Shown: positions 1,995 to 33,038 of the stretch, piece after piece
Position numbering within the stretch: position 1 is the first letter of the stretch
Layout of the letters: each line of letters starts with the position of its first letter
Assembly (NCBI GenBank): GCA_903847275.1
Contig: CAINDC010000146.1
Location: 1 to 38,645, forward strand
Direction of reading: 5' to 3'
Origin: an uncultured Pseudomonadota bacterium
GTDB taxonomy: Bacteria; Pseudomonadota; Gammaproteobacteria; Methylococcales; Methylomonadaceae
DNA length: 38,645 nucleotides
The notes under the pieces: generated by a model
What the model saw: only the letters and a program-made list of their open reading frames with translations
Databases searched by the model: none
What the model was told of the DNA's origin: nothing
Position numbers and translations under genes: made by a program

Positions 1995-4643
1995 TTAAAA
2001 CTCTTCCCAATCATCTGTAAATAATTCTACTTCAGCTTCTTTAGGTTTAACTGGTTTCGATACCGTTGCAGGTTTTGCTGCAGTATCTTTTTTCAATTTC
2101 ATAATTGCCGCCGCAACCGCACTCGACGTATCAGAAAAATCAGAACCATTTTCCAACATATTTCCAGCTTGTTCGTATTGTTTGGCATTAATCACTGATG
2201 CAACTTTTCCCGCAGCAACGTGAAATTTCGCGTGTTCGCTTATGCAAGTTTGATAACTGGGTAAATGTGTAATTTTTGAATGCGATTCCTCATGATGCAA
2301 CCACTTTCCGAAATCACAGCAGTTATCTTTTGAAATAGTTGCTACATCGAGAGTTTCTTTATTAGTGATTGCCGAACGTAATTTCACTTTCCATTCAACG
2401 TGCTTTTGTAACGCGCCATCTAAATCAATATCGATAGCTTCAATAGCTTCTGTCATGACAGGTTTTGCTTTTGACACAGATGTTTTATTAGAAACGGAAG
2501 TTTTCATAACTGGTGCAGAACTTGATTTAGTTTGTCCACCTGCGGTTTTAAAATTCGCCATTGTGACTGACAAGTGACGAGCCTGATCTTCTAATGCTTC
2601 TGCGGAAGCTGCTGCTTCTTCAACAAGTGCGGCATTTTGTTGTGTTACATCATCCATTTGCCCAATGGCTTGGTTGACTTGTTGAATACCAGAAGTTTGC
2701 TCATAAGAAGCGGCTGTAATTTGACCAATTGTCGCAGTGACATCTTGAATCGAATTAACAATTTCTTCCATTGTTTTACCCGCCCGCGCCACTAATGCCG
2801 TTCCATCTTCCACTTTATCAACAGAATCACTGATTAAGGCTTTAATTTCACCTGCTGCACTTGCTGCACGTTGCGCTAAATTACGTACTTCACTCGCAAC
2901 CACCGCAAAACCACGACCTTGATCGCCTGCACGCGCCGCTTCAACCGCCGCATTCAACGCCAAGATATTTGTTTGGAATGCAATTCCATCAATCACGGTA
3001 ATAATATCAACGACTTTACGCGATGATTCGTTAATGTCTTCCATTGTGGTGACAACTTGATTAACAACTGCCACACCTTGTCGCGCAATTTCTGATGATG
3101 CTAACGCCATTTCATTGGCGTGTTTCGCATTTTCACTGTTCGCTTGAACGGTTGATGTGAGTTCTTGCATGCTTGCGGCAGTTTCTTCCAAACTTGCTGC
3201 TTGTTGCTCAGTGCGTTGCGATAAATCGTTATTTCCCGCTGCAATTTCTTGAGATGCCGTGTTAATTGTATCGGTCGAATCTTTGATTTCACCCACTAAT
3301 GCTTTGAGATTTTCCACCGTGCCGTTCAACGCATTTTTAACATTATTGAACGCGCCTGCTGGATATTCAGTGGTAATTGCTTGTGTTAAATCGCCTTGTG
3401 CTAACGCATTCGATAATTTCAATACATCACCAAAAGAAACTTCACTGGTTTCCATCAAATTATTCAAATTCGTCAACATATCTTTAAACATAAATTTAAA
3501 TTGACTGGTATCACTACGTTTAGAAAAATCACCTTGTGCGCCTGCAACAGAAAGCATTTCGATGTCTTTACTCATACTTGCCAATGCACTTTTTACGGCA
3601 TCAATCGCTACGGTAATTTTCGCTTTTTCTCCAGGTAAACGATCAATATCACGTTGAAAATCACCACTTGCATATTGTGTCACTATATCAACTACGTGCA
3701 TTTTTACAGCGATATGCGACTGTACTAATCGGTTGATTTCGCTCGCCATTTCACTGTATGAACCTTGAAACTTTGAAACATCGATTTTTTCGCTAATAAA
3801 ACCTTCGTCGTGTTTTTTCGCCATCACACGTTGAGCCAAAATGAGTTCGTTGATGGTGTTTTGCATTGTTTTTAACGAATAAAGTAAACTGCTGTTATCA
3901 CGCGGCTGTAACGTAATTGACGTATTTAAATTTCCAGCAGATACATTTTTAACCTGCTTCACTGCATCTACTAATTCGCCACCTAATTCACGCATTAAAT
4001 AACGTGAAAATGCCATTCCGATTAACACGCTAAAAATAAAACCAATAGAAATGATGACAACAAGTACTATTAAATTAAATTCGTAAATTTCAGACGATTT
4101 TTCGGCAGATTGTTGAGCAAATTTTTCTTTGAGTTTACTTAATTCATTTACCTTTTCATCTATACGTTTACCGAGTGGTGCTTGGGCTTCTAAAATTACG
4201 TTAAATTCAGGTGTAATTTGCATTAAATTGGAGGATTGAATCATCACAAGCATTTGCAATGTTAATCTTTCCCACTCAGGTACAACACTTTCTAGTTCAG
4301 TAAAGATAATTTTTGCTTGCTCTGAATGAAAAAGTTTTTGGCTTGCACTTAAATTTTCTTTGAATAATTTCATATTTTCTTTAGCAAATTCAACTTTTTC
4401 AGCTGTTTTTACTGGATCAGATTCAAGTATTGCAGTTCTCCACTCACGTGCGGCAATTAGACGATTTATTTTCGCTTCTTTTATGAGCGAAACACCTAAT
4501 AAATCTTCGCTGTATAACTTATCAACGAAACCATCGATGCGATTCATATTCACAACACCAATGATGCCGATTATTAAGCCAATAACTGCGACAACAATAA
4601 AACTACATACTAATTTTGTTCCTAGTTTCATATTTTCAAACAT
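1995..4643 (-). CDS. methyl-accepting chemotaxis protein, poly-HAMP, CZB domain
   Basis: An 882-residue transmembrane chemoreceptor. TM1 is at about residues 10-32. A helical periplasmic region of about 155 residues (4HB-like) follows, then TM2 at about 190-212. Next come up to five HAMP-like repeats, recognisable by recurring AGNL, SGDF, QGDF and QGDL turns. The cytoplasmic hairpin peaks near residue 560 (FQTNILALNAAVEAARAG). A C-terminal zinc-binding CZB domain spans about 745-825, with the HVEWK, CDFGKW and HAKFH motifs that hold the His/Cys ligands. The last residues, DDWEEF, resemble the WxxF pentapeptide that tethers CheR/CheB. An AGGAGA ribosome-binding site precedes the ATG, and the start overlaps the end of the upstream uspA-like gene by 8 bases. 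Confidence 0.95.
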   Translation of the reverse strand: MFENMKLGTKLVCSFIVVAVIGLIIGIIGVVNMNRIDGFVDKLYSEDLLGVSLIKEAKINRLIAAREWRTAILESDPVKTAEKVEFAKENMKLFKENLSASQKLFHSEQAKIIFTELESVVPEWERLTLQMLVMIQSSNLMQITPEFNVILEAQAPLGKRIDEKVNELSKLKEKFAQQSAEKSSEIYEFNLIVLVVIISIGFIFSVLIGMAFSRYLMRELGGELVDAVKQVKNVSAGNLNTSITLQPRDNSSLLYSLKTMQNTINELILAQRVMAKKHDEGFISEKIDVSKFQGSYSEMASEINRLVQSHIAVKMHVVDIVTQYASGDFQRDIDRLPGEKAKITVAIDAVKSALASMSKDIEMLSVAGAQGDFSKRSDTSQFKFMFKDMLTNLNNLMETSEVSFGDVLKLSNALAQGDLTQAITTEYPAGAFNNVKNALNGTVENLKALVGEIKDSTDTINTASQEIAAGNNDLSQRTEQQAASLEETAASMQELTSTVQANSENAKHANEMALASSEIARQGVAVVNQVVTTMEDINESSRKVVDIITVIDGIAFQTNILALNAAVEAARAGDQGRGFAVVASEVRNLAQRAASAAGEIKALISDSVDKVEDGTALVARAGKTMEEIVNSIQDVTATIGQITAASYEQTSGIQQVNQAIGQMDDVTQQNAALVEEAAASAEALEDQARHLSVTMANFKTAGGQTKSSSAPVMKTSVSNKTSVSKAKPVMTEAIEAIDIDLDGALQKHVEWKVKLRSAITNKETLDVATISKDNCCDFGKWLHHEESHSKITHLPSYQTCISEHAKFHVAAGKVASVINAKQYEQAGNMLENGSDFSDTSSAVAAAIMKLKKDTAAKPATVSKPVKPKEAEVELFTDDWEEF

Positions 4644-11231: not shown

Positions 11232-12326
11232 TTACATTGTAAATTCCGAAATGATATTGATGATACGCTCAATATCTTCGACTTCTAACGATGGATACAT
11301 CGGCAAACAAATCACTTCATTTGAAATTTGGCGAGCTATTGGTAAATTAGCGGGTGCTGCCGATAGCAAACCACGATACATCGGAAAATCACTAATCAAT
11401 GGATAAAAATAACGTCGTGCAAAAATACCATTGGCTTTGAGTTTTTCATAAAGTTCGTCACGATTTTGTTCAACAAAAATTGGAAAATACGCATAATTCG
11501 CAACGTGTTCGCCAACATTTGCACAACGAATTCCAACAACATTTTTCAAGCCATCACGATAACGTGCATCAATCATTTTGCGTTTTGCCAAAGCGTCCTC
11601 GATACCTTTGAGTTGCAACAAACCAAACGCGGCGTTAATTTCGCTCATTTTTCCATTGATACCCGCTGCAACAACGGTAATTTCATCTGCAAAACCAAAG
11701 TTTTTTAAATGGTCAATTCGACGTTTGATTTTTTCATCTGGACAAACAATCGCGCCACCTTCAAACGTATTAAAAACTTTCGTCGCGTGGAAACTCAAGA
11801 CCGATAAATCACCGTGATTCAACAAGCCACCATTTTTATCTTGTACACCAAACGCATGAGCTGCATCGTAAATCACTTTAAGATTGTAGTTATCAGCAAT
11901 TTGTTGAATTCGAGCTGCGTCACACGGATAACCATAACAATGAACGGGCATAATCGCTGTCGTTTGTGGCGTAATTGCCGCTTCAATTTTTTCAGGATCA
12001 AGATTGAGCGTTAAAGGGTCAATATCGACAAACACAGGTTTAATGTTATTCCACAATAAAGAATGTGCCGTAGCAACAAACGAATATGGTGTGGTAATCA
12101 CTTCGCCTGTAATTCGCATAGCCTGCAACGCAGTAATGAGTGCAATCGTGCCATTTGTAAAAAGCGCAATATGTTTTACACCCAAATAATCACACAACGC
12201 TTGTTCGAGTTGCTGATGAAATTCACCGCCATTTGTTAAAATTTTGTTGCCCCAAATTTTTTCTAAATAGGGCAAAAATTCTTCTAATGGTGGAAGGGTG
12301 GGTTGGGTGACGTAGATAGGGTTCAT
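11232..12326 (-). CDS. DegT/DnrJ/EryC1/StrS-type sugar aminotransferase
   Basis: A 364-residue PLP-dependent aminotransferase of the nucleotide-sugar class. The PLP lysine is Lys183 in SFHATKVFNTFEGG, and the acidic PLP partner is Asp154 in YDAAHAFG. The TPYSFVAT substrate loop lies at about 79-86. Such enzymes aminate a keto group of a dTDP- or UDP-linked deoxysugar for O-antigen or glycan synthesis. Overall sequence recalls VioA-like dTDP-4-amino-4,6-dideoxyglucose makers, but the sugar cannot be assigned from motifs. No other sugar-nucleotide gene is adjacent, so its pathway partners must be elsewhere. A short gap of 50 bases separates it from alr on the same strand. Confidence 0.9.
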   Translation of the reverse strand: MNPIYVTQPTLPPLEEFLPYLEKIWGNKILTNGGEFHQQLEQALCDYLGVKHIALFTNGTIALITALQAMRITGEVITTPYSFVATAHSLLWNNIKPVFVDIDPLTLNLDPEKIEAAITPQTTAIMPVHCYGYPCDAARIQQIADNYNLKVIYDAAHAFGVQDKNGGLLNHGDLSVLSFHATKVFNTFEGGAIVCPDEKIKRRIDHLKNFGFADEITVVAAGINGKMSEINAAFGLLQLKGIEDALAKRKMIDARYRDGLKNVVGIRCANVGEHVANYAYFPIFVEQNRDELYEKLKANGIFARRYFYPLISDFPMYRGLLSAAPANLPIARQISNEVICLPMYPSLEVEDIERIINIISEFTM

Positions 12327-12376
12327 TTTTTACCTTGCGTTTTAAGTTCTACTTTTTAGGTATTTCGATAATCATT

Positions 12377-13483
12377 TTAGCTTGAGAAAAGTGCTTCTGA
12401 ATGTTTCGATTCAACTATTTCAACGCGAGGTGTAATCCCGCAAATCAATGTGTAAGGAATCGTATTTGAACAAATAGCAATTTCCTCAATAGGCAACTTT
12501 TCGCCCCACAAAGTGACTGAATCACCCGCTTTCGCCGTGGAATTCAAACCTAAATCAACCGTTATCATGTCCATCGAAACCCGTCCAACTAAAGGTACAC
12601 GTTCACCATTCACTAAAACGGGCGTACCAATTTGAGCATAACGCGGATAACCATCACCGTAACCAATCGCCACTACGCCTAATTTTGTCGCGCTCGAACT
12701 TGTCCATGTTCCGCTATAACCAACGGTTTCACCCGCTGCAACATCACGCACCGCAATCAATCGGGAATATAAACTCATTAACGGTTGCAAATTTAATTGC
12801 CCGCCTGTTGAATCCGCAAATGGCGAAATACCGTACAGCATAATTCCAGCACGAACCCAATCGGTCAGCGAATCTTGCCACGCTAAAATCCCCGCTGAAT
12901 TCGCCATACTTTTTTCGCCTTTGTAATTCGCAGTAAGCTGATTAAATAGTTCGATTTGCTGAGACGTTTTCAAATCATTTACATCGTCAGCATTCGCAAA
13001 ATGGGTCATGAAATTTAGGGGTTTCTTAACGACATTACACGCACTTAACTGTTCAAAAACCTGATTTACTTCGTGCGCTTTGAAGCCTAAACGATTCATA
13101 CCTGTATCAATTTTCACCCAAGCCCCCAACTGTTTTGATTCAGTCTGATGCTTTAAAATCTCTAATTGATGCGGCGAATGCAATGAAACTTCCAAATCAA
13201 AATTCAACAAATTCTGTAATTCTTCAAGCTCTGTGAAACCTTCCAAAACCACGATACGCTGTTTAAAACCTGCTTTCCGCAGGCATACACCTTCTTGAAC
13301 TCGCGCCACAGCAAAGCCATCAACCAATGGATTCAATGCCTGCGCGACACGCAATAAACCGTGTCCATAAGCATTTGCTTTTATGACCGCCATGATTTTA
13401 GAGTTTGGGGCTGCTAAACGCGCTTGTTGCACGTTATGACGAATCGCTTTGAGATGAATAACTGCGTAAGCGGTACGAGTCAT
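12377..13483 (-). CDS. alr: alanine racemase
   Basis: Alr interconverts L- and D-alanine, supplying D-Ala for peptidoglycan. The 368-residue protein has the PLP lysine Lys35 in the signature AVIKANAYGHG. The second catalytic base is the Tyr of VGYSGTW, which comes from the partner subunit of the dimer. The C-terminal barrel motifs AIGYGDGYPR and GRVSMDMI are also present. It is complete. It lies 17 bases after the small membrane ORF and its likely terminator, so transcription may begin anew or read through. No strong ribosome-binding site is visible before the ATG. Confidence 0.96.
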   Translation of the reverse strand: MTRTAYAVIHLKAIRHNVQQARLAAPNSKIMAVIKANAYGHGLLRVAQALNPLVDGFAVARVQEGVCLRKAGFKQRIVVLEGFTELEELQNLLNFDLEVSLHSPHQLEILKHQTESKQLGAWVKIDTGMNRLGFKAHEVNQVFEQLSACNVVKKPLNFMTHFANADDVNDLKTSQQIELFNQLTANYKGEKSMANSAGILAWQDSLTDWVRAGIMLYGISPFADSTGGQLNLQPLMSLYSRLIAVRDVAAGETVGYSGTWTSSSATKLGVVAIGYGDGYPRYAQIGTPVLVNGERVPLVGRVSMDMITVDLGLNSTAKAGDSVTLWGEKLPIEEIAICSNTIPYTLICGITPRVEIVESKHSEALFSS

Positions 13484-24972: not shown

Positions 24973-26103
24973 ATGACTGAATTACAAAAAACAAACACTC
25001 CACCACGTTGGCTACTCGCAGAACTGACTTATGCGTGTCCGTTGCAATGCCCGTATTGCTCGAATCCGCTCGATTACACGAAATATAAAAGTGAACTCAG
25101 CACCGACGATTGGAAGCGGGTTTTAACCGAAGCGCGAAAAATGGGCGCGGTGCAATTGGGTTTTTCAGGTGGTGAACCACTGACTCGTCCCGATTTAGTG
25201 GAATTGGTGCAGCACGCGCGTGAATTGGGTTATTACTCAAATCTAATTACGTCAGGTTATGGTTTAACCGAAGAAAAAATTATTCAACTTAAAACGGCTG
25301 GTTTAGACCATATTCAAGTTAGCATTCAAGCCAGCTCGCAAGAATTAAATGATCACATTGCTGGCACAAAATCGTTTGAACACAAACAAGAAGTGGCGCG
25401 TTTGGTGAAGAAACACGGTTATCCGATGGTGTTATGCGTTGTGATTCATCGTGAAAACATTCATCAAATGCCTGAAATTTTGAAAATGGCAGAAGCGTTG
25501 GGCGCGGATTATTTGGAACTCGCCAACACGCAATACTACGGTTGGGCGCATTTGAATCGCGATTTATTGTTGCCAACCAAAGAACAATTTGAAACGGCTG
25601 AAGCGATTGCCCAAGCGTTTAAAGTGCAAGTCGCGGGTAAAATGAAAATTTATTACGTTGTGCCAGACTTTTACGAAGACCGTCCGAAAGCCTGCATGAA
25701 CGGATGGGCGACGACGTTTTTAACGATTGCGCCCGATGGCATGGCGTTACCATGTCATTCTGCGCGAGATTTGCCGAATTTTGAATGCCCGAATGTGAAT
25801 GATTTTAGCGTGTCTGAAATTTGGAATAACTCGAAAGCGTTTAATTTCTTTCGCGGGTTTGAATGGATGCAAGAGCCGTGTCGCAGTTGCGACGAAAAAG
25901 AAAAAGATTTCGGCGGATGTCGCTGCCAAGCCTATTTGTTGACGGGCGATGCGAGTTCAACTGACCCCGTTTGCAGCAAATCGCCACAACATCACGTCAT
26001 TGACGAATTGATTGCGACGGCGCGAAATTCGGCGTTATCAGGGAATGAAAAACCGCTCGTTTTTCGGAATAGTAAAAACGCGCGAGGAAATTTAGGTGAT
26101 TAA
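24973..26103 (+). CDS. pqqE: PQQ biosynthesis radical SAM protein PqqE
   Basis: PqqE makes the Glu-Tyr carbon-carbon crosslink in the PqqA peptide, the first committed step of pyrroloquinoline quinone synthesis. The 376-residue protein has the radical SAM motif Cys22-x3-Cys26-x2-Cys29, [11 protein letters not shown], and a C-terminal SPASM region with further cluster cysteines ([37 protein letters not shown]). Size and motifs match typical PqqE (about 380). No pqqA, B, C or D gene is present within the window on either side. Its 3' end overlaps the outer-membrane protein gene by 8 bases. Confidence 0.95.
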
Positions 26104-27490
26104 CCGCTATGTCGTTATCAGTGTTTTTGCTACGATTTTTACGCCGATTGCATTTGCCGACTATTCGCTTTACGAAGGTGAACACGGCGCATTGTCTGCG
26201 GGTTTTCAAGTTCAAACCGCCTTGTTTGGCGATATTAACAATCAATCGGGTGGCTCTGCAAAAGCAAATTTAAGCGATTCCTTTTGGGAAATGAGTGCAA
26301 AACCACATTTAGAAGGCTCGCTAAATTTAATTCAAGACAGCAAGTTATACGGCGGCTTTAGTTACGTTTATAGCAGCACGTTAGGTCATGATTTATCGGG
26401 TTACACACAAAAAGGCGTGGAAATGTATCAACAAGAAAGCGATTTTCTTGTTTCAGGCACTTACGATAATTACCGCTACGCAAACAAAACCGAAGATCTT
26501 TTTTTAGGTTGGAAGTCAGGGAAATTACTCGATGAAGATGAAAAAATCACGGTTGATTTATCGGGTGGCAAACAGAATTTCAAATTAGGTTCAGGTTTTT
26601 TACTACATTACGGCGCAGACAATGGCGGAAATCGTGGCGCGGGTTGGGTCAATCCTCGCACCGCGTTTAACAATACAATCATTGGGCGTTTGAACATTGA
26701 CGATGTGAAATTTGAAGGTTTTTATTTAGAAACACGTCCGTTAAACCCTGCTGAAAAAAGAAACTATCAAGGCGGTAACATTGAATATGCGTATTCCGAA
26801 AGTGCCACGTTGGGCTTGAGTTATATCAACACACGCAATCACCGTTTTTTACATGATGATGGTTCAATCGATTTAATCGGCAGACAAGCGTTGGATAACG
26901 ACACATTCAACGCGCGATTCGATTTTTCACCGCTGGAAAACTTCACCATCAGCACTGAATATGCTTATCAAATCAATTCACTTAAAACCACAACATCTGA
27001 ATCAACTGATAAAACAAACAAACGTGCTTCTGGTGGTTTTGGTCAAATCGAATACAAACGCGAAGATTTATTTTGGCAACCTGCAATTAGTTACCGTTAC
27101 GCCATTCAAGGCAATGGATTTGACGCAATGTCACCAGGTTTTACAACGTGGGGAACGTGGTTTCAAGGTGAAATAAGTGGTGAATGGATGCTGGATAATT
27201 CAAATTTAAGAACGCACGTTGGTCGATTGGTTTTAACGCCTGAAGAAAGCGTGACGCTGAATTTGATTTATTACAATTTTACCTTTGTAAATCCTTCTGC
27301 ATTTGATTTAACGTCAGCGAATTACGGTAACGAAGTGAATTTATTAGCGGATTGGGAATATAGCGAATCACTGAGTTTTTCAGCGGGGCTTGAGGCGTTT
27401 GTGCCGAATGAAGGTGGAAAACAGTATTTAGGTGGCGATGCAAACAAAGTCTGGCTGCAAGGAATGTTATCTGCGTCATTTGAGTTTTAA
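26096..27490 (+). CDS. outer-membrane beta-barrel protein (alginate-export-like)
   Basis: A 464-residue protein with a signal peptide ending in AFA, long alternating strands with aromatic girdles, and a C-terminal SASFEF ending in Phe, the insertion signal of outer-membrane barrels. The overall pattern resembles alginate-export/porin-type barrels of 16-18 strands; the family is a tentative call. The GTG start overlaps the end of pqqE by 8 bases, which strongly suggests co-translation. This raises the idea of a role linked to PQQ or its substrates, which is inference. No plug domain or TonB box is seen, so it is not a TonB-dependent receptor. Confidence 0.8.
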
Positions 27491-27505: not shown

Positions 27506-29695
27506 ATGAAAAAAAATAAAAAAATAAAACCGCAAAAAAAATACACCGTTACCTCGATAACCTACTCGCTTTGTGGGTTGACGATAATGGGGATTTTGAT
27601 TTTGACCGTTGTGTCATCAATTCAAGTTGATCGCTTTTTGCGGAACGAATTACGTTTAAGAATCGGTGATGTTGCTGCCATGATGGCAAAAAATATTGAC
27701 GGTGATTTGCATGCAAAAATACAAACTGTCGAAGATAATAAAAGCCCCGCATTTGAAAAATTAAAAAATAATTTATGGAATATGCGCGAAGGTGGTACTG
27801 AAATCGCCAACGCCTACACCATGCGAAAATTAAATAACGGTGAATTTGTTTTTATTGTTGATGGTTCAGCAAAAGATCAAAATGCAGTGGGTGATATTTA
27901 TCCCATTGAATCTGTGTCAAAAACGCTTATGAATTCCTTCAATGCAACCTCTGAAAACACTGAAAAATATATTGAACCCGAAATTTATACCGATGATTGG
28001 GGAACGTGGTTATCAGGTTACGCGCCTATTTTTACGTCATCAGGTAAACTTGATAGCATTATCGGCATTGATATTTCAGCAAAAAGTATTCGAGAGCATC
28101 AGATTGAATATCTTATTGCCACTTTTATTGCTTCATTAGTTGTCATTTTAATTACATTACCTTTTGTTTTTAAATTGATGAATTTCATTCGCGCCATGAA
28201 TACAGAAATTGAACAAGCAAACAAAAATTTTCGTAGTTTGCTCGATAATTCGGGGCAAGGTTTTTTATCGTTTGGGGCGGATTTAATTATTGATGAACAA
28301 TACAGCCACGCTTGCGAAATGATGTTGGGAGAAATTCCAGCAGGACAAAATGCTGCGGAGATATTTTTTCAAGATGACAACACAAAAGCTGAACTATTTC
28401 GTACTGTTATTTCGTCTGTGTTGGAAGTAGAAGATAAATCAATGCGTGAAAATATGATGTCGTTGTTGCCCGCTGAAATTCAACGAAATCAGCTGTCATT
28501 AAGTGTTGAATATAAAATGCTCGAAAACGATAAATTCATGGTCATTTTAACGGACATTACGGAAGAACGACGTATAGCAGCGATGTTGAATAAAGAACGT
28601 TTGCACCTTGAATTGATTGTGCTGGCAGTTTCTGACAGACGCAATTTTTTCGATGTAGTTCATGCGTTCCGCGACTTTTTGATTGTGTTACCCAAAATTC
28701 TTACTACTGAAATCTCACCTCAAATAATTGTCAAAGACCTTTACCGCGAAATTCACACGCACAAAGGCACGTTAAATCAATTTAGTTTTCCGAACATACC
28801 CAAGTTGTTGCATGAAATTGAAAGTAATTTATCGGAATTAGTTGCGCTAGGTGGTTCTGTTACGCCCGCGCAGATTGCAAACAGTATTTTGCAAAATGAG
28901 CTTCAGACCGCTTTTGATAATGATATTGCCATTATCACGGATAAATTAGGCTCGAATTTTATGGAGCATGGTGAAAATATAATTTTGACACGTCACCAAG
29001 CGCAAAAAATGGAAAAGTTAGCTAATCAACTTTTGCGCGGTGAATTCATTGATATTTCAATGGAAAATATCAAGGCGTTACTTGATGAAATTAGCAAATT
29101 ACGCAAAATAACACTAAAAGATGTATTGCGCGGTTTTGATGGCGTAGTTCAACAAGCGGCTGAAAATATGGAAAAAGAAGTTGCGCCGATTGTTATAAAA
29201 GGGGGATCGGATATTTGGATTGATCCACAAATTTATCAAGAATTTTTACGTTCATTAGTTCATGTATTTCGCAATACGGTAGCTCACGGTATCGAAAGTC
29301 CAGAAGCACGTTGGGAAGTAGATAAAGATGAGATTGGAAAAATTACTTGTTACACGGCAGTTGTTGGCAATGACATTAAATTAACGATTGCGGATGATGG
29401 TGCTGGAATCAATCTTGATGCGGTGCGTGAAAAAGTGATGACTGCAGGCATTTATACTGCTGATGACATTGCGAAACTATCTGATGATGAAGTCGCAAAA
29501 CTAATTTTTATGGATAACGTCAGCACTCAAAAAGAAGTGACGGAATTAGCAGGGCGCGGAGTAGGTTTAGCCGCTGTGTTAAATGAAACAAAAAATATAG
29601 GGGGCGATATTGTGGTTAAAACAGTTAGTGGACAAGGTACGCAATTTATTTTTACTTTGCCATTACCAAAAGAAATTTCAAACGAGGAAAGTTAA
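27506..29695 (+). CDS. membrane sensor kinase: Cache-like, PAS-like, Hpt, CheA-type ATPase
   Basis: A 729-residue protein. TM1 is at about 18-38. A periplasmic Cache-like sensor follows (DDWGTWLSGYAPI, GIDISAKS), then TM2 at about 205-228. A PAS-like region (FRSLLDNSGQGFLSF) runs to about 350. An Hpt-type domain has the phospho-acceptor motif HTHKG, with His417 fitting HxxKG. The C-terminal ATPase is of the CheA class: Asn590 in HVFRNTVAHGIESPE, DDGAGI near 629 and GRGVGLAAV near 684. No CheW-binding P5 domain is present, so it cannot dock into receptor arrays as CheA does. It is followed directly (stop TAA, then GTG) by a CheX-like gene. Confidence 0.88.
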   Translation: MKKNKKIKPQKKYTVTSITYSLCGLTIMGILILTVVSSIQVDRFLRNELRLRIGDVAAMMAKNIDGDLHAKIQTVEDNKSPAFEKLKNNLWNMREGGTEIANAYTMRKLNNGEFVFIVDGSAKDQNAVGDIYPIESVSKTLMNSFNATSENTEKYIEPEIYTDDWGTWLSGYAPIFTSSGKLDSIIGIDISAKSIREHQIEYLIATFIASLVVILITLPFVFKLMNFIRAMNTEIEQANKNFRSLLDNSGQGFLSFGADLIIDEQYSHACEMMLGEIPAGQNAAEIFFQDDNTKAELFRTVISSVLEVEDKSMRENMMSLLPAEIQRNQLSLSVEYKMLENDKFMVILTDITEERRIAAMLNKERLHLELIVLAVSDRRNFFDVVHAFRDFLIVLPKILTTEISPQIIVKDLYREIHTHKGTLNQFSFPNIPKLLHEIESNLSELVALGGSVTPAQIANSILQNELQTAFDNDIAIITDKLGSNFMEHGENIILTRHQAQKMEKLANQLLRGEFIDISMENIKALLDEISKLRKITLKDVLRGFDGVVQQAAENMEKEVAPIVIKGGSDIWIDPQIYQEFLRSLVHVFRNTVAHGIESPEARWEVDKDEIGKITCYTAVVGNDIKLTIADDGAGINLDAVREKVMTAGIYTADDIAKLSDDEVAKLIFMDNVSTQKEVTELAGRGVGLAAVLNETKNIGGDIVVKTVSGQGTQFIFTLPLPKEISNEES

Positions 29696-30217
29696 GTGGC
29701 AGAAAAACAACTCATTATTGAAGTTATGGCATCCGTAACCAAAAGGACAAGTGATTATTTTAAAAACGAATTTGGAATTATCACCACCGAAAATAACAGT
29801 TCTGGCGGAGAATTAGACGCGCTGGTTTTGCTCGATATGACAGCTGTTATTATTATGGGCGGAAAAATAAATTTACTTGTGGTTTTTAGTTTTGAAGAGC
29901 CTTTAATTGACGCAATTTATCATGAAATGACCGATGAGTTAGGTATTAAGGATGACGAAGTTGAAAAGTATCGTAAAGCGGCGGCTGGTGATGTAATTAA
30001 CACGGTTTTGGGACATTCAACCATCGATTTATTAAATCTTGATAAAAATGGCATTAGCATTACGCCGCCGCGAATTTTAAACGATGTAAAAATAATTCAA
30101 ACAATGAAATATAAAATGTTTTACGCACAGAGTTTACAAACCCCGTTGGGTGGTATGACGATTGGTTTGGTTGGTTCACAAAAACTATTTAATGAAATTT
30201 TTTGCATAACTGGGTGA
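29696..30217 (+). CDS. CheX-like phosphatase
   Basis: A 173-residue CheC/CheX-fold protein. CheX dephosphorylates CheY~P. The catalytic motif of the family is E-x-x-N followed by 22 residues and a Pro; here the sequence is GDVINTVLGH with Asp99 in place of Glu and Asn102 conserved, and Pro at the expected distance (TPP). The start is a GTG directly after the kinase stop, and a CheY-like gene begins 7 bases after its own stop. The likely substrate is that CheY-like regulator. Whether Asp99 still supports catalysis is uncertain; it could be a binding-only or slower form. Confidence 0.82.
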   Translation: MAEKQLIIEVMASVTKRTSDYFKNEFGIITTENNSSGGELDALVLLDMTAVIIMGGKINLLVVFSFEEPLIDAIYHEMTDELGIKDDEVEKYRKAAAGDVINTVLGHSTIDLLNLDKNGISITPPRILNDVKIIQTMKYKMFYAQSLQTPLGGMTIGLVGSQKLFNEIFCITG

Positions 30218-30224
30218 TAAAAAA

Positions 30225-30623
30225 ATGGCTGATTTAGAAGCATTAAATGTGATGGTAGTCGATGATTCACCGATTATTATTAGAAAATTAACGGCACTTT
30301 TAAATACGTTAGGATATGTGGTTGTTAAAACAGCAGAAAATGGTGTGGAAGCAGTTGAAACTTATGAACAGTATAAACCTGATGTTGTAACGATGGATGT
30401 TACGATGCCAGAAATGGATGGTATTGAAGCGACACAAGCAATTATGAGCAAATTTCCTGAGGCGAAAATTGTCATGGTTACATCGCACGGACAAGAAACA
30501 ATGGTACTCAATGCGTTAAAAGCAGGCGCAAAAGGTTATATATTAAAACCGTTTCACCAACAGAAAGTTTATGAAACGATTCAGAAAGTTTGTAACCGAA
30601 AAATTGAATTGCAATTCTTCTAA
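30225..30623 (+). CDS. CheY-like single-domain response regulator
   Basis: A 132-residue receiver with no output domain. The phospho-acceptor is Asp58 in VVTMDVTMPEMDG. The acidic pair is in MVVDDSP, the switch Thr in VMVTSHG, and the conserved Lys in YILKPF. It ends in a short tail, KIELQFF. As third gene of the kinase-CheX-CheY group it is the natural phosphate acceptor of the kinase and substrate of the phosphatase. Its target is unknown; possibilities include the flagellar switch, a pilus motor or a c-di-GMP enzyme. The stop lies 1 base from the stop of the convergent zinc-finger gene. Confidence 0.92.
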   Translation: MADLEALNVMVVDDSPIIIRKLTALLNTLGYVVVKTAENGVEAVETYEQYKPDVVTMDVTMPEMDGIEATQAIMSKFPEAKIVMVTSHGQETMVLNALKAGAKGYILKPFHQQKVYETIQKVCNRKIELQFF

Positions 30624-32642: not shown

Positions 32643-33038
32643 ATGGATATACCAGCAGAAATGTTACAAAAAAAGATTCTTATTGTTGACGATGCGGCTT
32701 CAATGCGTACATTAACGAAAGCAATTTTACGCGAATCTGGTTTTGCTCACGTTATGGATGTTCCAGGTGGACGTGAAGCATTGATGATGATGGCAAAAGT
32801 AAAATTTAATGTTGTAATTTGTGACTGGAATATGCCTGGTATGAGTGGCATTGAATTGTATCAAGCAGTAAAAGATGACGATAAATTAGCAACGCCACCT
32901 TGGATTATGTTGACTTCATCTTCAGAAGGCGAAAAAGTGAAAGAAGCTATTTCTGTCGGTATTACGTCTTACATTGTTAAACCATTCAAACCTGATAATT
33001 TGATTAACCAATTAGTTGCAAAATTAAAAGCAGGTTAA
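32643..33038 (+). CDS. cheY: CheY-type chemotaxis response regulator
   Basis: A 131-residue receiver closely resembling chemotaxis CheY: KKILIVDDAASMRTLTKAIL, the phospho-acceptor Asp in VICDWNMPGMSG, switch residues in WIMLTSSSEGEK, and YIVKPFKP. The NMPGM loop is the chemotaxis-type. AGGAAAAG precedes the ATG. It stands alone with its own promoter and a strong terminator, which suggests independent expression. Together with the chemoreceptor at the left of the window it fits a motile or twitching bacterium, but no cheA, cheW or flagellar gene is present here. Confidence 0.9.
   Translation: MDIPAEMLQKKILIVDDAASMRTLTKAILRESGFAHVMDVPGGREALMMMAKVKFNVVICDWNMPGMSGIELYQAVKDDDKLATPPWIMLTSSSEGEKVKEAISVGITSYIVKPFKPDNLINQLVAKLKAG

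Follow-up and report, generated by a model that had tools for sequence, protein, structure and literature searches.

This analysis concerns a stretch of 38,645 nucleotides, hereafter called the window, from an uncultured bacterium of the Methylomonadaceae (assembly GCA_903847275.1, contig CAINDC010000146.1). Within the window, three adjacent genes encode a sensor kinase with CheA-type catalytic domains, a CheX-family protein and a CheY-like response regulator. All three open reading frames (ORFs) lie on the plus strand, with intergenic gaps of 0 and 7 bases. The trio is a real, conserved and little-described module; kinases that carry their own sensor and lack CheW are, as such, already known. 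The genes, and the regions of the kinase, are as follows.

27506..29695, plus strand: sensor kinase gene, ATG start, ORF of 729 amino acids
27554..28171, plus strand: sensor region of the kinase, residues 17-222, delimited by reading the sequence by eye and by predicted helices and strands
28208..28561, plus strand: PAS-like region, residues 235-352, from the AlphaFold fold and weak PAS matches in sister-type kinases
28631..28963, plus strand: Hpt domain, residues 376-486, from a profile of relatives and the model; codon of His417 at 28754-28756
29099..29671, plus strand: CheA P4-type ATPase, residues 532-722, with the N box from 586, G1 from 630 and G2 from 683
29696..30217, plus strand: CheX-family gene, GTG start, ORF of 173 amino acids, Pfam CheX
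30225..30623, plus strand: gene of a CheY-like single-domain response regulator, ATG start, ORF of 132 amino acids, Pfam Response_reg

The kinase combines, in this order, a sensor, a PAS-like region, an Hpt domain with His417 and a CheA-type ATPase. Pfam HATPase_c matches residues 583-721 (E 1.1e-11), the nearest solved relatives among PDB sequences are CheA structures (2e-27), and the model of the kinase aligns with CheA 1i58 with a Z score of 22.8 over 175 residues (root-mean-square deviation 2.0). CheA P4 also dominates a Foldseek search with the whole kinase, of which the top row is a modelled WalK complex. The structure comparison yields almost exclusively ATPase matches and is therefore silent on the sensor and the PAS-like region. 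The Hpt domain gives a weak Pfam match (E 0.025, 15.3 bits against a cut-off of 24.6). A misreading of this one weak match was nevertheless rejected, as a profile of residues 376-486 from 13 relatives recovers CheA P1 from the PDB (1tqg, E 1.1e-6); with the same profile, the designed helical bundles 6ff6 and 2lch score about equal to 1tqg. The AlphaFold model has helices at residues 378-399, 405-425, 431-451, 454-460 and 463-481 of this stretch, and His417 sits in an invariant H-T-x-K motif. Because the profile of the relatives matches CheA P1, the presence of the Hpt domain is taken as settled.

The N-terminal half of the protein is described by its predicted fold. Hydrophobic helices at residues ~17-39 and ~199-222, read by eye as transmembrane parts, flank a presumed periplasmic Cache-like domain, and the sensor and PAS-like regions of the window kinase have no Pfam match at E<=1. 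In the AlphaFold model (mean predicted local distance difference test score, pLDDT, of 80), two long helices enclose a mixed sensor domain and are followed by a PAS-like fold, by the bundle of helices that holds His417 and by the ATPase; the predicted template modelling score is 0.40, so that the arrangement of these domains is not reliable. In the PAS-like region, Ser267-x-x-Cys270 (codons 28304-28315) is kept in 16 of 16 aligned kinases and may be a site of redox chemistry or of metal or ligand binding. Residues 2-243 of the kinase have a counterpart with 64% identity in another kinase of the genome, a HisKA hybrid (L059:269-3709, minus strand; loci are cited here by L numbers and genomes by G numbers), a likeness that points to sensor swapping within one genome.

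A CheW domain is absent. Neither CheW nor HisKA or H-kinase_dim is found in the window kinase by Pfam at E<=1, a purpose-built CheW profile does not detect CheW in it either, and the C-terminus lies only 8 residues past the HATPase_c match. As to the P3 region, some CheA alignments begin at residues 475-492 and the model has a low-confidence helix pair at 496-510 and 515-531, for which Pfam H-kinase_dim gives no match. A plain CheA was rejected since the CheW domain is missing, and without this domain the kinase has no known means of docking to a receptor array. The initial annotation, made from the sequence alone, had described a three-gene set with these gaps, a kinase with its Hpt at His417, a CheA-class ATPase and no CheW docking. 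All of this is borne out by the ORF list, Pfam, the profiles and the model, including an Hpt fold at the expected residues ~395-480. The Cache-like and PAS-like regions that it named are less well supported, as neither has a Pfam match in the window protein and the PAS-like one is drawn from the predicted fold and from weak PAS matches in sister-type kinases.

The second gene encodes a member of the CheX family, with a Pfam CheX match (PF13690) at E 3.8e-9 and 36.9 bits, above the cut-off of 27. Its model (pLDDT 83) matches the CheX structure 3hm4 in Foldseek with E 6.8e-12. The active pair of CheX phosphatases is Glu-x-x-Asn (ExxN), in place of which the window protein has Asp99-x-x-Asn102 (DxxN). 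Because Asp stands where most CheX proteins have the catalytic Glu, the protein is filed as CheX family and its phosphatase activity as a prediction. The label of CheX-like phosphatase given at the outset was thus correct as to the family and overstated as to the activity. The third protein is a receiver (Pfam Response_reg, E 5.3e-33) in which the conserved residues Asp13, Asp14, Asp58, Thr86 and Lys108 are all present, Asp58 being the acceptor position.

The same combination occurs in other genomes. A search of the class with the kinase as starting point found core matches of E 1e-62 or better in at least five other genomes of 274 (G007, G218, G193, G056 and G068 among the matches listed), scoring at most four candidates per genome. 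A profile of the PAS-Hpt region, used with at most six candidates per genome in the phylum search, matched 6 of 398 genomes of the phylum at 1e-12, strongly in two (the window's own and G007). Within the window's order it matched 5 of 101 genomes, again strongly in two (own and G726). At 1e-25, the order of G218 gave 4 of 24 genomes and that of G007 gave 7 of 174, five of the latter being of this kinase type and two of a sister type (G800 and G846). The kinase subfamily is rare and patchy within the window's phylum, which these profile searches covered. A contig pattern search with the kinase alone returned 13 loci, of which just two, L040 and L041, are full relatives of the core. The kinase of L041, from an uncultured proteobacterium, is 64% identical and its locus has the same gene order as the window; that of L040, from another uncultured proteobacterium, is 94% identical, with frame breaks and a contig that ends inside the kinase.

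An alignment was made of 16 kinases with this core, from 15 genomes, ten genus codes plus L041 (which has no code) and eight family codes. Genus codes are shared by L054, L210 and L211, by L055 and L056, and by L205 and L206, and a single genome holds both L208 and L209. Left out were L040 (broken and cut), L081 (contig end) and L075 (distant). The last of these is from the same phylum but a different class; CheX and CheY adjoin its kinase, of which the Hpt reads HxxKA. A CheX protein is adjacent or fused in 14 of the 16 cases, spanning seven family codes, and 13 of the kinases (all but L208, L209 and L057) have a neighbouring CheY-like gene. The order kinase-CheX-CheY is found in the window, L041, L074, L055, L056, L205, L206 and L212, and with CheX fused to the kinase in L054, L210 and L211. 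These three loci of one genus encode the kinase and CheX as a single polypeptide, and L212, from a sister genus, has them as separate genes in the same order. In L053 and L207, the kinase gene is preceded by those of CheX and CheY; the remaining CheX partner is that of L208. Chance adjacency was rejected, as the same gene set recurs in other families. Kinase-first searches are the sole source of the co-occurrence counts, because a survey that started from CheX picks its loci by their CheX. A profile of this CheX type, built with both proteins that it recovers, matched 2 of 299 genomes of the phylum, the window's own and G007, each time adjoining the kinase.

When 77 REC ORFs of less than 260 amino acids from annotated loci were ranked by similarity to the window CheY, ranks 2-15 went to the 14 CheYs that neighbour kinases of this type. 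The dedicated CheX and CheY of the initial annotation thus both recur with this kinase type, and the gene order that it proposed to survey is present in more than one genome and in other families as well; by sequence, the kinase and its two partners are judged to belong together. The sensors differ by lineage: the window and L041 have a Cache-like sensor, L053 has PAS domains, L055 and L056 have a receiver, and L205, L207 and L208 have solute-binding domains. The kinase of L074 has a different N-terminus, without a Pfam match and read as helix-bundle-like, and those of L054, L210 and L211 have no recognisable sensor. In these assignments, the kinases of L055, L206, L210 and L211 were outside the Pfam scan and are, by length and order, near copies of those of L056, L205 and L054. 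The constant part is the kinase core with its two partners, and the sensor varies.

The neighbours of the trio in other lineages point to an output. GGDEF proteins are encoded in the same gene run in L054, L205, L206, L207, L211 and L212, so that a diguanylate cyclase is found in 6 of the 12 CheY-bearing loci with an uncut neighbour (L210 is cut). These loci span three family codes (f100, f282 and f258); in the other six, no GGDEF was found among the neighbours scanned. The target of the CheY in these three other families is probably a diguanylate cyclase. The following stretches carry a set of genes that resembles the Sia system, upstream of the genes for the kinase-CheX fusion and CheY.

L211:4955-11782: SpoIIE, DUF6272 and SiaC proteins, with the fusion, CheY and a GGDEF protein
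L210:135-5517: SpoIIE, DUF6272 and SiaC proteins, with the fusion and CheY
L054:5860-12751: SpoIIE and SiaC proteins, no DUF6272, with the fusion, CheY and a GGDEF protein

DUF6272 is SiaB, and sets of the SpoIIE/DUF6272/SiaC type occur in the Sia regulation of biofilm formation; as judged from these families, a Sia-like set is joined to the kinase-CheX-CheY relay in the three loci. In L208, a YfiR/HmsC-like protein (DUF4154; 11912-12481, minus strand) is encoded directly before the kinase. The YfiR/HmsC family has been linked to cyclic diguanylate (c-di-GMP), and this neighbour is a hint in the same direction.

Taken together, these features make it probable that the window encodes a CheA-type sensor kinase in one protein that functions free of an array, with phosphotransfer from His417 to Asp58 and dephosphorylation by CheX. 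The mechanism is well predicted from the domains and residues. A signal, putatively a ligand, at the exchangeable N-terminal sensor would reach the catalytic core by way of the PAS-like region, and there the ATPase domain would phosphorylate His417 of the Hpt. The phosphate would then move to Asp58 of the adjoining CheY-like protein, which in its phosphorylated form would act on a downstream target, until the adjoining CheX-family protein strips the phosphate from it. A wider reading is that the PAS-Hpt-CheA kinase, CheX and CheY form a distinct CheW-free core that accepts any sensor, be it Cache-like, multi-PAS, a receiver or stacked solute-binding domains, and has c-di-GMP as its common output, thereby being an array-free switch for a diguanylate cyclase. 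This generalisation is put forward tentatively, as being somewhat less likely than not.

A number of observations weigh against the main reading. Of the 14 CheX partners of this kinase type, 8 have Asp where the catalytic Glu would be, and among 94 CheX-like ORFs that were surveyed, 85 have ExxN, five only DxxN and four neither. No CheX lies beside two of the 16 kinases, those of L209 and L057; L209 keeps the Hpt His, yet has neither CheX nor CheY in a stretch of 17 kb, and the visible part of L208 includes CheX but not CheY. The next gene downstream of the trio in the window's lineage (the window and L041) lies on the opposite strand and encodes a protein dependent on flavin adenine dinucleotide, not a cyclase. 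Lastly, kinase, CheX and CheY show correlated distances in a set of 10 trios (r 0.80 to 0.86, p 0.0002, with r 0.86 for kinase and CheX) that excludes the near copies L055, L206 and L210 and also L208, L209 and L057, which have no full trio. Minus L041 and L211, the correlation is r 0.29 (p 0.075) for kinase and CheX and r 0.27 (p 0.085) for kinase and CheY. As it fades once these two near relatives are removed, it is not relied on. The genome of L209 has three CheX matches elsewhere, one being that of L208. L057 (9388-11442, minus strand, genome G068) counts in favour of the main reading: in its kinase Arg replaces the Hpt His, the G1 and G2 boxes are changed and HATPase_c scores below threshold, and no CheX match was found in G068, a genome that is 99% complete. 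In this single case, the chemistry and the CheX partner appear, from the sequence changes, to have been lost together.

One alternative is that the trio is nothing separate but an ordinary system for modulating type IV pili, of the kind built on class III histidine kinases (HKIII). Adebali et al. reportedly described HKIII in 2017 as kinases with their own sensor, CheA-like catalysis and a CheY-like partner, without CheW and without the dimerization and histidine phosphotransfer (DHp) domain. By that description the trio shares these features, with its own sensor, Hpt, CheA-like ATPase and CheY partner and no DHp. Further CheW-less Hpt kinases with CheX and CheY do exist in the same class of bacteria; they were found in the CheX-first survey, in which CheX matched in 48 of 274 genomes of the class and 67 further stretches were examined for such kinases. 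A first group has the order kinase-CheY-CheX (L123, L126, L132, L144, L148 twice, L149, L151, L153, L154 and L156), several of its kinases carry a PilJ-type sensor, and it probably corresponds to the described HKIII, for which a link with type IV pili is cited in the accessible part of PMC6501615. A second group has a partial methyl-accepting chemotaxis protein (MCP), one or two CheX and CheY (L060, L061, L062, L076-L080, L213 and L214). In kinase-first terms, CheX lies beside 10 of its 11 kinases, L058 having none in 18 kb. In L061, L062, L076-L080, L213 and L214, a short MCP-type signalling protein adjoins the kinase, usually with two CheX and CheY, and no separate CheW gene was matched in these stretches; in L080 the MCP-type stretch is partial by Pfam.

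A tree was built from 57 ATPase domains, 29 that are followed by a CheW match and were labelled CheA on that ground, and 28 that are CheW-less; L055 and L019 (near copy or duplicate) were removed, L205-L214 were not included and L075 was. The window group branches together with the MCP group (97/91) and the PilJ-type group stands apart (100/99), with several long branches flagged. A single clade of all 28 CheW-less kinases is not rejected by the approximately unbiased test (p 0.496), which is compatible with the trio being ordinary HKIII, and for this reason the idea that CheW-less kinases arose twice was given up. The separate position of the PilJ-type group and its different gene order nevertheless argue against this alternative, as do the six loci that indicate c-di-GMP rather than pili and the lack of a pilus protein among the scanned neighbours, which are part of all neighbours. 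We consider it unlikely that the trio is nothing but an HKIII system for pili.

A second alternative concerns the CheX protein, which, owing to its Asp for the catalytic Glu, might bind phosphorylated CheY as an adaptor, sink or output partner and not be a phosphatase. The predominance of ExxN among the surveyed ORFs speaks for such a role, all five DxxN ORFs of that survey being from this kinase type, as does the occurrence of DxxN in the partners of the window, L041, L053, L055, L056, L205, L206 and L207. However, Asn102, Gly106 and Pro125 are invariant across 16 aligned CheX proteins, Asp is still acidic, and Glu is retained in the partners of L054, L074, L208, L210, L211 and L212. In CheZ, moreover, Asp has the analogous role. 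A CheX that only binds is therefore regarded as improbable. Least of all is it to be expected that the kinase is a side input to ordinary chemotaxis, by phosphorylating other CheYs or joining arrays: the host genome has three further loci with both CheA and CheW, and another CheY-like gene lies 2 kb off, but the kinase has no CheW domain and the adjoining CheY is of the type found beside this kinase type. Since these three loci make cross-talk possible, the initial annotation went too far in calling the system self-contained, and as a whole its interpretation is partly supported.

With dephosphorylation by CheX retained as the preferred reading, the system would mean that receptors, CheW and arrays are all dispensable for CheA-type catalysis paired with a dedicated CheX. 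The kinase-CheX fusion and the decayed relative would be small natural constructs for separating the roles of Hpt, CheY and CheX, and the diguanylate cyclases near the trios of relatives make a measurable output likely.

The trio is preceded by two genes on the same strand, of which pqqE opens the gene run.

24973..26103, plus strand: pqqE (NCBIfam TIGR02109, E 1e-163)
26096..27490, plus strand: protein of 464 amino acids without a family match, ending 15 bases ahead of the kinase

The gene for the protein of 464 amino acids lies between pqqE and the kinase in the window and at the same place in L040 and L041. The protein has no match in Pfam, NCBIfam or PDB sequences and, judging by its sequence, is perhaps an outer-membrane barrel. 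Among the loci compared with the window genes, pqqE adjoins this kinase type only in L040 and L041, and a link of the kinase with pyrroloquinoline quinone or methanol was dropped on that account. The host is likely a methanotroph, as its genome has a gene of the PmoA/AmoA family (E 7.8e-129) as well as PqqE. The CheY-like gene downstream of the trio is solitary (32643-33038), occurs in L041 too and has classical CheY as its top NCBIfam match, under the cut-off. Elsewhere in the window (1995-4643, minus strand), a large MCP is encoded with a helix-bundle sensor, several HAMP domains and a C-terminal zinc-binding CZB domain.

The initial annotation could not match the trio to a named system. In a literature search, no named CheW-less set of kinase, CheX and CheY was recognised, which is weak evidence since subscription papers were poorly covered; that claim stands as to the exact composition, but HKIII and the other CheW-less sets are precedents. 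Several known systems can be compared with the trio. According to the accessible text of Berry, Andrianova and Zhulin, CheW is present in 100% of CheA, and HATPase_c together with CheW distinguishes CheA (PMC10782961; preprint PMC10542144). The window kinase has the CheA-type HATPase_c and an Hpt with His417, but because it lacks the CheW domain it falls outside that published definition. Like CheA, a class II kinase (HKII), it combines an Hpt with HxxKG and a P4-type ATPase and is expected to have CheY as acceptor, and in some species CheA too is served by a CheX phosphatase. Unlike CheA, it has no match to CheW (P5) or P2, its sensor is on the same chain and the Hpt lies shortly before the ATPase.

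With HKIII, as that class is reportedly described, the kinase shares an attached sensor and the absence of HisKA/DHp and CheW. It differs from the PilJ-type kinases in that the tree places its group apart and in that, in this group, the CheX gene mostly stands between those of the kinase and CheY. A perhaps comparable pair, reportedly named TwmS/TwmR, is the one that Kennan et al. are said to have described in 2015 for twitching motility in Dichelobacter nodosus. The CheX proteins of Borrelia and Thermotoga (PDB 3hzh and 1xko) serve CheA/CheW chemotaxis; the window CheX has their fold and the Asn and Pro of the motif, but Asp for Glu. Finally, in Leptospirae a CheC/CheX domain is fused to F1-class CheA, as stated in the accessible text of PMC10782961. 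The polypeptides of L054, L210 and L211 resemble these fusions in carrying a kinase and a CheX-type domain on one chain, but differ from them in that the fused kinases have no CheW domain.

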